This document shows, piece by piece, positions 39,941-50,504 of a stretch of 64,000 bases of DNA. The DNA lies in assembly GCF_021379005.1 (NCBI RefSeq), contig NZ_CP075171.1, positions 2,418,001 to 2,482,000 on the forward strand, written 5' to 3'. Both the position numbers and the translations under genes were made by a program. Source of the DNA: Leptodesmis sichuanensis A121. GTDB lineage: Bacteria; Cyanobacteriota; Cyanobacteriia; Leptolyngbyales; Leptolyngbyaceae. Within the stretch, counting starts at the first letter, position 1. The number at the start of each line of letters is the position of its first letter. The notes beneath the pieces were generated by a model. The model was not told the origin of the DNA. It was given only the letters and a program-made list of their open reading frames with translations, and made no database searches.

Positions 39941-40305
39941 GCTCCCTTCCCTGATTGACTGACAAAAATTCTGCAAGGCTCAAGTCGAGAGCATGTCACC
40001 TTTGCAGGCCCTCATCCCCCAGCCCCTTCTCCCAGGTTGGGAGAAGGGGGGCCGAGCCATCTCAAAGTCCCTCTCCCAAATTGGGAGAGGGATTTAGGGT
40101 GAGGGCAAAAGTGACATGCACCCCTCAAGTCTTTGTTGTCAAACCGCCCAAAAATAAATTTTGGGCTAACAGCGCAAGTCCATGCAAATGGACTGAAACT
40201 CTTGTCCAGTCGTCTTTAGATGACTTTGGCTATAAGCCAGGAAATTGATTTCCTGGTGGTGCAGCGGGTGTTCAGGAGATTTGTCAGTCAACCAGGCTCC
40301 CTTCC
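39941..40305. mobile_element. 200-bp miniature element (copy 1) interrupted by a 137-bp element, with 10-bp target duplication
   Basis: Terminal inverted repeats CTGATTGACTGACAAA (from 39951) and its near complement ending CAGTCAACCAG at 40295. The element is flanked by the identical decamer GCTCCCTTCC at 39941-39950 and 40296-40305. Its total length of 345 bp minus the inserted 137 bp and one 8-bp duplication gives 200 bp, the exact length of the uninterrupted copy at 42712-42911. It contains no gene, so it would need a transposase supplied in trans. Four hairpins occupy the interior. Confidence 0.85.
39987..40123 (+). mobile_element. 137-bp palindromic miniature element (copy A), inserted in the 200-bp element
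   Basis: It starts GAGAGCATGTCACC and ends GTGACATGCACCC, with imperfect terminal inverted repeats. It is flanked by 8-bp direct repeats CTCAAGTC at 39979-39986 and 40124-40131. Two perfect hairpins are inside: stem 40023-40034 with 40038-40049, and stem 40069-40079 with 40081-40091. A second copy in opposite orientation is at 46910-47046. The repeated core (CCCTCATCCCCCAG...) is a type often seen between cyanobacterial genes. Confidence 0.85.
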
Positions 40306-42711: not shown

Positions 42712-42911
42712 CTGATTGACTGACAAAAGTTCTGAAAGGCTCATGTCTCTGTTGTCAACCCGCCCTAAAATAAATTTTGGGCTAACAGCGCAAGTTCATG
42801 CAAATGGACTGAAACTCTTGTCCAGTCATCTTTAGATGACTTTGGCGATGAGCCAGGAAATTGATTTCCTGGTGACGCAACGGGTGTTCAGGAGATTTGT
42901 CAGTCAACCAG
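42712..42911. mobile_element. 200-bp miniature element (copy 2)
   Basis: Uninterrupted copy of the element at 39951-40295. Terminal repeats CTGATTGACTGACAAA (from 42712) and TTTGTCAGTCAACCAG (to 42911). Internal hairpins: AGTTCAT/ATGGACT (42793-42810), GTCATC/GATGAC (42825-42840) and CCAGGAAAT/ATTTCCTGG (42853-42872). No exact target duplication is left at this copy. It lies directly beside a truncated gene. Confidence 0.85.
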
Positions 42912-46683: not shown

Positions 46684-46871
46684 CTCCCATCCCTCCCTAT
46701 TCCCCGGACTTGAATCCAATTGAGCATTGGTGGTTTGTGCTCAAACATTGGCTGCGGCAACGCTGGGATGAATTTGACACCTTTCGTGATTGGTTGATGC
46801 TGCTTTCAAGCATTGTCCTAACGTGCTGCCGTAGGGCCATACTTGATAGTCAAAGTTTAATCCTGCTATGA
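46680..46871 (+). pseudogene. IS630-family transposase 3' remnant
   Basis: About 60 codons in the frame that begins near 46680: PPYSPDLNPIEHWWFVLKHWLRQRWDEFDTFRDWL. The PPYSPDLNPIE segment is the third-acid motif at the C-terminus of IS630-type DDE transposases. The rest of the transposase is missing, and the frame continues upstream inside the hydrolase gene in a different reading phase. A decayed insertion. Confidence 0.8.
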
Positions 46872-46909
46872 ATTACTGAAATGAGTTGTCCAAAATAGTT
46901 AAACCCTCA

Positions 46910-47046
46910 GGGGGTATGTCACTTTTGCCCTCACCCTAAATCCCTCTCCCAATTTGGGAGAGGGACTTTGAGATGGCTCGGCTCCCCTTCTCCCAGGTTG
47001 GGAGAAGGGGCTGGGGGATGAGGGCCTGCAAAGGTGATATGCTCTC
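46910..47046 (-). mobile_element. 137-bp palindromic miniature element (copy B)
   Basis: Reverse-complement copy of the element at 39987-40123, exactly 137 bp. Flanked by the direct repeat AACCCTCA at 46902-46909 and 47047-47054, an 8-bp target duplication different from that at copy A. The two hairpins are conserved. It lies in the 5' region of the GTP cyclohydrolase II-like gene, 134 bases upstream of its start. Confidence 0.88.
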
Positions 47047-47179
47047 AACCCTCATCCTCAGATAGGCTCAGGCTCTCTGACCAATTAAGCTGATAGAATC
47101 GTGGCTTCAGCACTATAACGATGTCCTGGTTTAACGTTTTATCTATCATCAGTGGTTCATTTATAGGGAAAGCATCTTT

Positions 47180-48445
47180 ATGACAGCCGATAAAATAGTT
47201 CCCAGAGCAAAACATATTGTTCTGACCTCCCACCCGACACGGTTTGGCCCGAAACCAATCCCCATTCACTGGGGAGAATCTGACCCGATTAAACGTGGTC
47301 CCATTATTGGCACGCTTTCCAATGCTGCACACCGAAATGTGATTGGCAGTCATTCTGGGTCGTATGGAGTTTACCGCGCTTTAGCTGTTGCCAGTGGCAG
47401 GCTGCAATCCAATCATCGGGCTGACCTGACGAATACCGCTCCTGCTGAACGAATTGGCCCCCATCTGTCCTGGTTTGACCCCGATAAAATTGTCTCTCTG
47501 GATCCTTTTGGTGCTCTGGTTGGGGAAGTTTATCCGTCCTACCAGGAGCAGGGCTATGATATTCGCCCCACGATCGCGATTACCAAAGCCCACATTAATA
47601 TGCCGGAACTGGCCGATGCAGTCGCCAAAGGACGGTTGCAGCTAGATGGGACGCTGGTGAAAGCAGGGGGCGATCTGGTCGTCACTAAGGCAGCGATCGA
47701 ACCTGTCTGGTATCTACCCGGATTAGCGAAACGGTTACAGGTCAGCGAATCGGAATTGCGCCGCGCTTTGTTTGAGCAAACAGGTGGGATGTTCCCCGAA
47801 CTGGTGACTCGTCCCGATTTCCATGTCTTTTTACCACCGATCGGAGGGGCAACGGTTTACATTTTTGGTGATCCTGCCGCCATCACCGATCCGACCAAAC
47901 CATTAGCCGTGCGGGTGCATGACGAATGTAATGGCTCAGATGTATTCGGCTCAGATATTTGCACCTGTCGTCCCTATCTGGTGCATGGCATTGAAGCCTG
48001 CGTACAAACGGCTCAGGAAGGAGGGGCTGGGGTCATCGTCTACTTGCGCAAGGAAGGCCGCGCCCTGGGAGAAGTCACCAAATTCCTCGTCTATAACGCC
48101 CGGAAACGGCAGGAAGGGGGTGATCGCGCCGATGCTTACTTTACCCGGACCGAATGTGTGGCCGGAGTGCAGGATATGCGCTTTCAGGAATTGATGCCGG
48201 ATGTGCTGCACTGGCTGGGTATTACTCGCATCGATCGCTTCATTTCCATGAGCAATATGAAACACGATGCGATCACGCGATCGGGCATTGAAATCATGGA
48301 ACGGGTGCCCATTCCTGATGACCTGATCCCAATGGATGCCAAGGTGGAAATTGAAGCCAAGAAAGCTGCAGGCTACTATACCGAGGGCGAAGTCCTCACC
48401 GAAACAGGTTTAGCGGAAATCAAAGGACGTAGTTTAGTTGAATGA
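47180..48445 (+). CDS. GTP cyclohydrolase II-like protein (URC1/RibA family)
   Basis: 421 residues. GTP-cyclohydrolase-II-like domain in the second half: AVRVHDECNGSDVFGSDICTCRPYL (zinc Cys residues), VIVYLRKEGRALGEVTKFLVYN, and LGITRIDRFISMSNMKHDAI. The N-terminal half (about 190 residues) is not the RibB synthase domain, which separates it from fused ribBA enzymes. This longer form is the type found in the URC uracil-degradation pathway of yeast (URC1) and in bacterial URC clusters. The next gene overlaps by 4 bases (ATGA) and encodes URC4, and upp follows, so this is an operon. Confidence 0.82.
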   Translation: MTADKIVPRAKHIVLTSHPTRFGPKPIPIHWGESDPIKRGPIIGTLSNAAHRNVIGSHSGSYGVYRALAVASGRLQSNHRADLTNTAPAERIGPHLSWFDPDKIVSLDPFGALVGEVYPSYQEQGYDIRPTIAITKAHINMPELADAVAKGRLQLDGTLVKAGGDLVVTKAAIEPVWYLPGLAKRLQVSESELRRALFEQTGGMFPELVTRPDFHVFLPPIGGATVYIFGDPAAITDPTKPLAVRVHDECNGSDVFGSDICTCRPYLVHGIEACVQTAQEGGAGVIVYLRKEGRALGEVTKFLVYNARKRQEGGDRADAYFTRTECVAGVQDMRFQELMPDVLHWLGITRIDRFISMSNMKHDAITRSGIEIMERVPIPDDLIPMDAKVEIEAKKAAGYYTEGEVLTETGLAEIKGRSLVE

Positions 48446-49767
48446 GCCTGAATCTAAAGTTTTGTGCCATTAAAGATCTTGCGGCCCAGGTTGCCTACTT
48501 GCGATCTCCGATCGCGATTCGCGATCGCTGTACCCAACTGTTTCAACTGGCCTGTTCCGATCAGTTGCGCTACTTCCGGTGCGACTTCAGCCAGTTGGAA
48601 CGAGTGGCGGATTACGGGATTGCCGTCATCCGTCAGCAGTATCCCGATTTACAAATTCCCTTTCATAGCCGTTGGCGACATTTTGAAGGGGGAAATGGCT
48701 CCCGGTTAAACCTGCTGAATACCCAACTGCAAAACCTGTCCCCTCTGGAAAAAGCCCAGGCCAAATTTGATTTAGCGATCGTCAGTGTACTTCTGGATGC
48801 CGGAGCCGGAGCCACCTGGCAGTACATCGAAGAACAAAGCAGACAAACCTATCGCCGCTCCGAAGGACTGGCCGTTGCCAGCTTCTGGATGTTCTGTCAG
48901 GGAGCCTTCTCCAGTGATCCAACTCGTTTGCAAGTGGATGCGATCGCCCTCCAGACCCTCAATGAAACGACTCTTGCTGAAGGCTTGCAAGTTAGTGCAA
49001 CCAATCCATTAGTAGGTTTACAGGGTCGTACCCAGTTGCTGCAACAGTTGGGTGAAACCTTATCTCGGTATCCCCAGTTGTTTCGATCCGACTCGTCCTC
49101 GCTCCTCCGTCCTGGCCATCTGGTGAACTACTTACTCAACCAGGCTGAAAACGGCCAGATAGCCGCGACCCAGGTTCTTAGTGCAGTTTTAACAGGCTTT
49201 AGCGACATCTGGCCCGGACGCATTACCCTGGCAGGCACCAACCTCGGCGACACCTGGCCCCACCCCGCCCTTGCCTCTCCCCATCCCCCCGATGCAGACG
49301 GAATTAATCGCCTCTCTACCCTCCCCCCCCAATCCCCAATTCCCGATCCCCGATCCCTGATCCCCTTCCACAAACTTTCCCAATGGCTCACCTACTCCCT
49401 GCTAGAACCCTTACAAGAATTAGGATTGGAGATTACTGAACTGAATGCTCTCACTGGTTTGCCTGAATACCGAAATGGTGGTCTTTTCGTGGATTTAGGG
49501 GTGTTGCAGGTGAAGGACAAAATCGTCTTGCATCAAGCTCAGCGTCCTGGCTCTGAAGCGATCGTGGAATGGCGTGCGTTAACCGTGATTTTGTTAGATC
49601 AGGTCGCAGAAATCATGCGACAAAAACTCAACCTGACTGCGGCTGAACTACCGCTCGTGAAAGTCCTGCAAGGAGGTACCTGGGCCGCAGGCCGCCAAAT
49701 TGCTGCCGAACTCAGACCTGAAGGAACTCCCCCAATTCAGATTGAAAGCGATGGCACAGTGTTTTAG
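48442..49767 (+). CDS. URC4/urg3-family protein (DUF1688)
   Basis: 441 residues. Segments such as [39 protein letters not shown] and [15 protein letters not shown]-like [22 protein letters not shown] identify the DUF1688/URC4 family, known from the URC pyrimidine degradation pathway; its biochemical activity is not settled. Residues about 290-315 (Pro/Ser-rich, ...[13 protein letters not shown]) are encoded by heptameric repeats (49327-49365), apparently expanded inside the gene without loss of frame. Confidence 0.82.
49327..49365. repeat. Heptamer-type tandem repeat inside the URC4 coding region
   Basis: Successive CCAATCC, CCAATTC, CCGATCC, CCGATCC and CTGATCC-type units. The array is in frame and codes for [11 protein letters not shown]. 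The same repeat class appears upstream of upp. Confidence 0.65.
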
Positions 49768-49841
49768 AAGGAAGTTTTGAGTTCGGGGTTTGCAACTACT
49801 CCTCTACTCACCTTCCCAACCTCTTACCTTTGCATCACCTT

Positions 49842-49868
49842 CCCCAACCCCTAATCCCCCCAATCCCC
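49842..49868. repeat. Heptamer-type repeat just upstream of upp
   Basis: TCCCCAACCCCTAATCCCCCCAAT-like units end directly before the ATG at 49869 and replace the usual ribosome-site sequence. Confidence 0.5.
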
Positions 49869-50504
49869 ATGTCTTCCCAAGTTATTCTGATTGAGCATCC
49901 CCTGATCCAACACAAGCTCACCCTGATGCGGCGGGCTGAAACCAGTACGGCAAAATTTCGATCGCTCCTGACTGAAATCAGTATGTTGCTGGCCTATGAA
50001 GTCACACGCGATCTACCGCTGAAATATGAACAGATCAAAACTCCCTTAGCAGAAATGCAAGCCCCTGTCCTGGCAGCAGAAAAGAAACTGGTGATTGTTT
50101 CAATCATGCGGGCGGGACAGGGGATTTTGGATGGTATGTTGCAACTGATTCCTTCGGCTCGTGTTGGGCATATTGGCCTGTATCGGGATCCAACCACCTT
50201 GATTCCTGTGGAGTATTACTTCAAGTTGCCCCATGATACGGAAGACCGGGACATGATCGTTGTGGATCCGATGATCGCCACGGGGAACTCCGCGATCGCC
50301 GCCGTTGATCGGTTGAAGCAAACCAACCCTAAATCCCTGAAACTGGTTTGCTTACTGGCCGCGCCGGAGGGTGTCGAAAATTTTCACAGTCACCATCCTG
50401 ACGTTCCGATCTATACGGCGGGTGTGGATGACAAGTTGGATGAACATGGGTACATCCTTCCTGGACTGGGGGATGCAGGCGATCGCTTGTTTGGAACGAA
50501 GTAG
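49869..50504 (+). CDS. upp: Uracil phosphoribosyltransferase
   Basis: 211 residues from the ATG at 49869; an in-frame start at 49830 would add repeat-encoded residues. Signatures: [65 protein letters not shown], the PRPP loop [19 protein letters not shown] and the C-terminal [17 protein letters not shown]. It converts uracil and PRPP to UMP. In the URC pathway a uracil phosphoribosyltransferase (URC6) is required, which fits its position as the third gene after URC1 and URC4. Confidence 0.92.

Follow-up and report, generated by a model that had tools for sequence, protein, structure and literature searches.

The window analyzed here is the whole 64,000-nt stretch of Leptodesmis sichuanensis A121 DNA. 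Within it, a short mobile element lies 133 bp upstream of the start of a URC1-like gene, in the leader of a URC locus that is laid out as follows.

46696..46844, + strand: remains of a further transposase gene, lying upstream of the MITE, with ~90% identity to 10 other genomic sites
46902..46909, + strand: left target-site duplication, AACCCTCA
46910..47046, + strand: MITE of 137 bp, ISKra4-type (type A), with ~40 copies in the genome and duplications of 8-9 bp at a constant boundary
46910..46927, + strand: left terminal inverted repeat, GGGGGTATGTCACTTTTG (usual form GGGTGCATGTCACTTTTG; compare the partner IS end GGGTGCATGTCACCTTCTTG)
47028..47046, - strand: right terminal inverted repeat, GAGAGCATATCACCTTTGC from the outer end inward
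47047..47054, + strand: right target-site duplication, AACCCTCA
47180..48445, + strand: URC1-like gene (GTP cyclohydrolase II family, PRK07198; 757.6 bits)
48442..49767, + strand: URC4-like gene, assigned by position, with no NCBIfam match
49830..50504, + strand: uracil phosphoribosyltransferase gene (upp)

The gene at 48442..49767 is presumably URC4-like, a name that we give it from its position. By eye, the transposase remnant resembles the terminal part of a DDE transposase of IS630 type.

Exactly 137 bp separate the two copies of AACCCTCA, and the unit between them is a MITE in being short, non-coding and closed by terminal inverted repeats (GGGGGTATGTCACTTTTGC / GAGAGCATATCACCTTTGC). An earlier copy in the window interrupts a host repeat, of which a second, uninterrupted copy is found 2.6 kb away.

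39953..40292, no strand assigned: host repeat with ends CTGATTGACTGACAAA / CTGGTTGACTGACAAA, bordered by GCTCCCTTCC and split by the first MITE copy
39987..40123, - strand: first copy of the 137-bp MITE, with CTCAAGTC at 39979-39986 and again at 40124-40131
42712..42911, no strand assigned: second, MITE-free copy of the host repeat, a related empty site with the target CTCATGTC present singly at 42740-42747

The preliminary description had given the element ahead of URC1 as 137 bp long, bordered twice by AACCCTCA and inverted relative to the first copy. The coordinates and the pairwise match bear this out, given that the two copies stand in opposite orientation and are 94% complementary over 140 nt. 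The host repeat is ~200 bp long, and its MITE-free copy is direct evidence of insertion for the first MITE copy. For the copy at 46910, a search for an empty site gave none, because its flanks are carried neither by URC leaders in relatives nor anywhere else in this genome.

A search of the 5.35-Mb single-contig genome returned ~40 copies of the 137-bp MITE, together making up 0.09% of the genome, with flanks that are unrelated nearly everywhere. Counting duplications in the copies that retain both ends (n = 30), we found exact duplications at a constant boundary in 23 of these full-length copies (8 bp in 18, 9 bp in 5) and near-exact ones, off by 1-2 bases or an indel, in 4 more; the remaining 3 are without any duplication. 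Chance would be expected to give exact 8-mer duplications in ~0.0005 copies out of 30. When the boundary was shifted by -12 to +29 bases in the same 30 copies, no duplications appeared except at the +1 shift, which marks the 9-bp cases. The preliminary description had proposed that the palindromic repeat travels as one discrete unit and makes an 8-bp duplication, a claim that would have suffered had other copies lacked repeats at the same boundary; with 23 of 30 copies showing exact duplications of 8-9 bp there, the claim of movement stands. On these comparisons, the identification of the 46910-47046 element as a MITE, including its mobility and its boundaries, is firmly supported.

The interior of the element is occupied by two motifs that face each other head-to-head, one per strand.

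46928..46964, - strand: left PIT/BoxC motif, CCCTCTCCC-AAATT-GGGAGAGGG-ATTTA-GGGTGAGGG, by pattern match (consensus from PMC4666352)
46984..47024, + strand: right triplex-type motif, CCCCTTCTCCC-AGGTT-GGGAGAAGGGG-CTG-GGGGATGAGGG, by the same rule, with a mirror purine third strand

Read by this rule, the interior consists of two inverted pyrimidine-purine-purine intrastrand-triplex (PIT/BoxC) motifs. The preliminary description had recorded neither these paired motifs nor the fact that unrelated transposon ends have the core in common. Compared with the consensus CCCTCNCCC-N3-6-GGGNGAGGG-N3-GGGNGAGGG, the left motif is exact in its arms and first loop, and its second loop is 5 nt long, which is outside the N3 of Escherichia coli and inside the 1-6 nt range of the database search in PMC4666352. 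In the right module the arms are 11 nt long and of another sequence, unlike BoxC/PIT/TMECO, and both halves share with that family the class II arrangement (a pyrimidine-purine-purine third strand) and the inversion. Using a pattern that permitted a second loop of 3-6 nt and that, like the reading of the right module, was picked after inspection of the sequence, we found 28 exact triplex motifs in this genome (G000), 25 of them within the MITEs of this family, and none with a reversed control pattern. The window itself holds 2 motif matches, one in each MITE, where 100 shuffles gave 0, and across 58 genomes, G000 included, each genome has between 0 and 283 matches, with the reversed control at 0 in all. 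An E. coli BoxC/TMECO form is known to make a triplex in vitro (Holder et al. 2015; PMC4666352), and the same study reports very high motif counts in cyanobacteria and, for E. coli, no association with transposons. The cyanobacterial motifs described here differ from E. coli BoxC in the latter respect, being the inside of an element with target duplications. In one other genome (G054), paired triplex motifs with 3-nt second loops are numerous (e.g., C2:11524-11613), and they resemble the BoxC consensus of E. coli more closely than do the motifs of the window.

Conservation is 97-98% in the arms and third strands and 64% in the hairpin loops, as measured on 117 distinct cores that come from 17 genomes. 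Given that pairing within an outer stem would likewise conserve the third strands, their conservation alone is no proof of a triplex. The 46910 element folds far better than its shuffles (z = -6.3 with DNA energies and -7.8 with RNA energies); DNA energies favor two inner hairpins within an outer stem, and RNA energies favor pairing of the modules with each other. In the cell, the core may fold as triplexes or hairpins, and such folding may have a role. A comparison with Rfam yielded nothing beyond sub-threshold chance matches to families of hairpins (e.g., mir-150). In this genome, the triplex-core hairpin is interrupted at L033 and at L036 by another small element with ends like CTACTGTGTACAT / CTGCCGTGTACAC, and at L036 the element inserted in the core has CCCAATTGGG on both sides.

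What might move such an element? The ISKra4 transposase model has >100 matches in this genome, among them three intact-looking IS of 1154-1155 bp (L041-L043) with ends GGGTGCGTGTCACCTTCTTG / GGGTGCATGTCACCTTCTTG and 9-bp duplications. Their first 13 bp equal those of the usual left end of the MITE, GGGTGCATGTCACTTTTG, the shared form being GGGTGC[AG]TGTCAC, and beyond these 13 bp the MITE ends differ from the IS at a few positions. An IS with matching ends, which the preliminary description had proposed to look for, is therefore present in the same genome and belongs to the ISKra4 family: its transposase scores 280.1 bits against the NF033572 cut-off of 205. From the layout of the open reading frames, in which ORF1 and ORF2 of L041, offset by -1, overlap at a stretch of seven T residues (L056 is laid out similarly), we predict that the transposase is joined by a -1 frameshift. 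Two-ORF, -1 frame transposases are described for the ISMich2 group of Mutator-like elements (Guerillot et al.; PMC3942029), and the likely partner IS resembles this group (p-MULT 4 in that work) in its NF033572 match, its GGG ends, its 8-9 bp duplications and its two ORFs in -1 relation. The MITE shares the ends and the duplications with the IS and differs from it in coding for nothing, so that only the ends are held in common. Further ISKra4 elements (L056 and L058-L060) likewise have ends beginning GGG and 9-bp duplications, and a second ISKra4 group (L044-L054) has ends GAGTGCATCCCAGTTTTG, which are GAG ends, with duplications mostly of 8-9 bp. A second MITE subtype of the present genome (L038, L040 and L120) carries the same core between ends GGGTGTATCCCACTTTTG / GGGCGCATCCCAG of CCCAC type, and in genome G057 a CCCAC-type MITE occurs together with CCCAG-type ISKra4 ISs with ends GGGTGCATCCCAG. 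The two MITE subtypes thus match two ISKra4 groups separately (GTCAC with GTCAC, CCCAC with CCCAG), which strengthens the assignment of the partner. At L261, an IS630 element lies immediately past an ISKra4-type transposase gene and probably forms a nested IS pair with it.

In total, these observations very probably describe a non-autonomous MITE that encloses a paired triplex cassette and is mobilized in trans by a transposase of the ISKra4 family, ISMich2 group (Mutator-like DDE, p-MULT 4). The copies, boundaries, duplications, empty site, IS-matching ends and conservation of the motif arms can be demonstrated from the sequence, and the naming of an ISKra4/ISMich2-type transposase as the mover is a strong inference from them. 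In the proposed mechanism, the transposase would recognize the GGGTGC[AG]TGTCAC ends in trans and would insert the 137-bp unit, at sites of little specificity and with duplications of 8-9 bp; between its ends, this unit carries a cassette in which two intrastrand-triplex (PIT/BoxC) motifs stand inverted to each other, each on its own strand.

Could the element instead be a static palindromic repeat of the REP or BoxC kind, spread by vertical descent, gene conversion or segmental duplication only? Its core is indeed palindromic, and BoxC in E. coli has no reported association with transposons (PMC4666352). This reading is contradicted by the duplications, which differ from copy to copy, are 8-9 bp long and sit at one boundary in 23 of 30 copies, and it must also contend with the empty site in the window and with unrelated flanks nearly everywhere; we consider it extremely improbable. 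That the mover belongs to some other family with 8-9 bp duplications (e.g., IS256, ISLre2 or an IS4 group) is a less remote idea, one that we nonetheless hold to be very unlikely. Duplications of this length are common to Mutator-like families, our comparison of ends covered ISKra4 elements only, and several MITE-bearing genomes give no strong ISKra4 match: at E <= 1e-40, no ISKra4 transposase was found in 5 of the 9 genomes searched, most of those 5 being MITE-rich, which implies that the partner is possibly often lost or divergent. Against this stands the separate matching of both MITE subtypes by ISKra4 elements in the same genome. A different question, raised in the preliminary description as a possible influence on the operon, is whether the copy at 46910 regulates the URC leader, as a hairpin attenuator, an insulator or a block to transcription. 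Its position 133 bp ahead of URC1 and its strong folding (z = -6.3 for DNA, -7.8 for RNA) would suit such a function. However, the core was absent from all 80 other URC1 loci examined (mostly cyanobacterial, with flanks of up to 6 kb), so that the placement of the MITE ahead of URC1 is lineage-specific and the insertion not conserved; a pattern scan of the leader gave no sigma-70-like promoter and no intrinsic terminator; and the remaining copies have the same core regardless of location. We therefore regard a regulatory role as unlikely.

The non-autonomous ISKra4 MITE is not the only carrier of this core, which is found throughout the cyanobacterial class beneath several further kinds of transposon ends. 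Within ISKra4-type ends and with 8-9 bp duplications, the core recurs in G022, G025, G026, G032, G039, G040, G050 and G057. In the present genome, type C copies (L260 and L262-L269) have ends CTAGTNC...GGCGNAAGT, the same as those of the IS630 element at L261, whose transposase scores 107 against the NF033545 cut-off of 100; sharing IS630 ends and a TA/CTAG target, these copies are IS630-type MITEs. Among rarer end types, for which duplications were read by eye, the core lies between GACCTCTTGCAAAAGTC in G004 and similar ends in G052, between TTAACCTGGCA in G005, between ACGCGATGTGCAAC with 7-8 bp duplications in G032 and G057, between CAGCCTTTACC with TA duplications in G039, and between CTGATTGACTGACAAAA with a 9-bp duplication at L394. 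In the core tree, end types are clustered yet mixed, with 26 changes of label where 8 is the minimum, on sequences too short to resolve most forks. The MITE had no match in phages, and its matches in plasmids are confined to cyanobacterial ones.

How might one core come to lie under so many ends? G039 is a cyanobacterial genome of 4.4 Mb in which most TA-type copies that were read carry the triplex core with a recognizable ISKra4-type end to its left (L392, p < 0.001 versus shuffles; L278, p = 0.01). In G039, then, an ISKra4 MITE became nested in another MITE and was co-amplified with it. For the IS630-type copies of G000 and the types in G004, G005 and G032, nesting was statistically unsupported. 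As a general route of end switching we accordingly set nesting aside, its support being confined to the G039 elements. Beyond the ISKra4 explanation itself, the core could aid transposition or replication, through fork stalling, single-stranded exposure or cruciform extrusion, and unrelated ends would then share it because it makes the MITEs that carry it more successful. The conservation of arms (97-98%) over loops (64%), the several unrelated end types that carry the core and the abundance of motifs (up to 283 per genome, with the reversed control at 0 in 58 genomes) are in keeping with this addition. Nesting and hitchhiking, however, account for the G039 case at least, and third-strand conservation would also follow from outer-stem pairing alone; we think such an aid rather unlikely. 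Only slightly better odds, still short of even, attach to our wider speculation that the paired triplex cassette has passed class-wide between unrelated ends (ISKra4, IS630, TA-target and others) since it aids spread or persistence. If this were true, the abundance of triplex motifs in cyanobacteria would be a record of MITE activity. In any case, one core under differing transposon ends offers a clean case for the study of end exchange among MITEs.

Knowledge of BoxC/PIT motifs goes back to the 1990s; they are abundant and are tied to genome instability in E. coli. We know of no account of the means by which they spread. In this cyanobacterium, nearly all exact triplex motifs are the inside of a MITE, and because that MITE is a transposable element with a nameable transposase, the spread of the motifs becomes testable. 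This suggests that MITE movement in cyanobacteria could contribute to the link between motifs and genome variability. MITEs, ISKra4 elements and PIT/BoxC motifs are each already known, and it is their link that we provisionally consider new: in a search confined to literature outside subscription, we found no paper joining the three, and searching the literature by sequence strings likewise gave no paper. A close parallel is a 187-bp MITE of Microcystis (PMC11448079), which is also cyanobacterial, has 8-bp duplications and a stem-loop interior, and was paired with its IS by shared ends; it differs in having ends GGCTCTTCG and an ISL3-type transposase, versus GGGTGCATGTCAC and ISKra4 here. REPINs and REP sequences (PMC3116915) are comparable in being short palindromic units in many copies. 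The REP/REPIN class is marked by mobilization through a RAYT-type transposase and by a lack of target duplications, whereas target duplications are present here. For REPINs, transposon ends accompanied by 8-9 bp duplications are not known.

Several elements related to this core have features of their own. The 218-bp TA-target element of G039, TACAGCCTTTACC (e.g., L364, L367, L372 and L382), reaches >230 ends, or ~115 copies. At L147 in G042, the core is bordered by 20-bp direct repeats, CAGTTTGGTGCCTTAGCGCC, that exceed every duplication seen elsewhere. The host repeat of the window (39953-40292 and 42712-42911) is itself MITE-like, and its ends, CTGATTGACTGACAAA / CTGGTTGACTGACAAA, enclose the triplex core near position 5071265 of this genome (L424) and in another genome (L394), where ends of the host-repeat type are accompanied by a 9-bp duplication.
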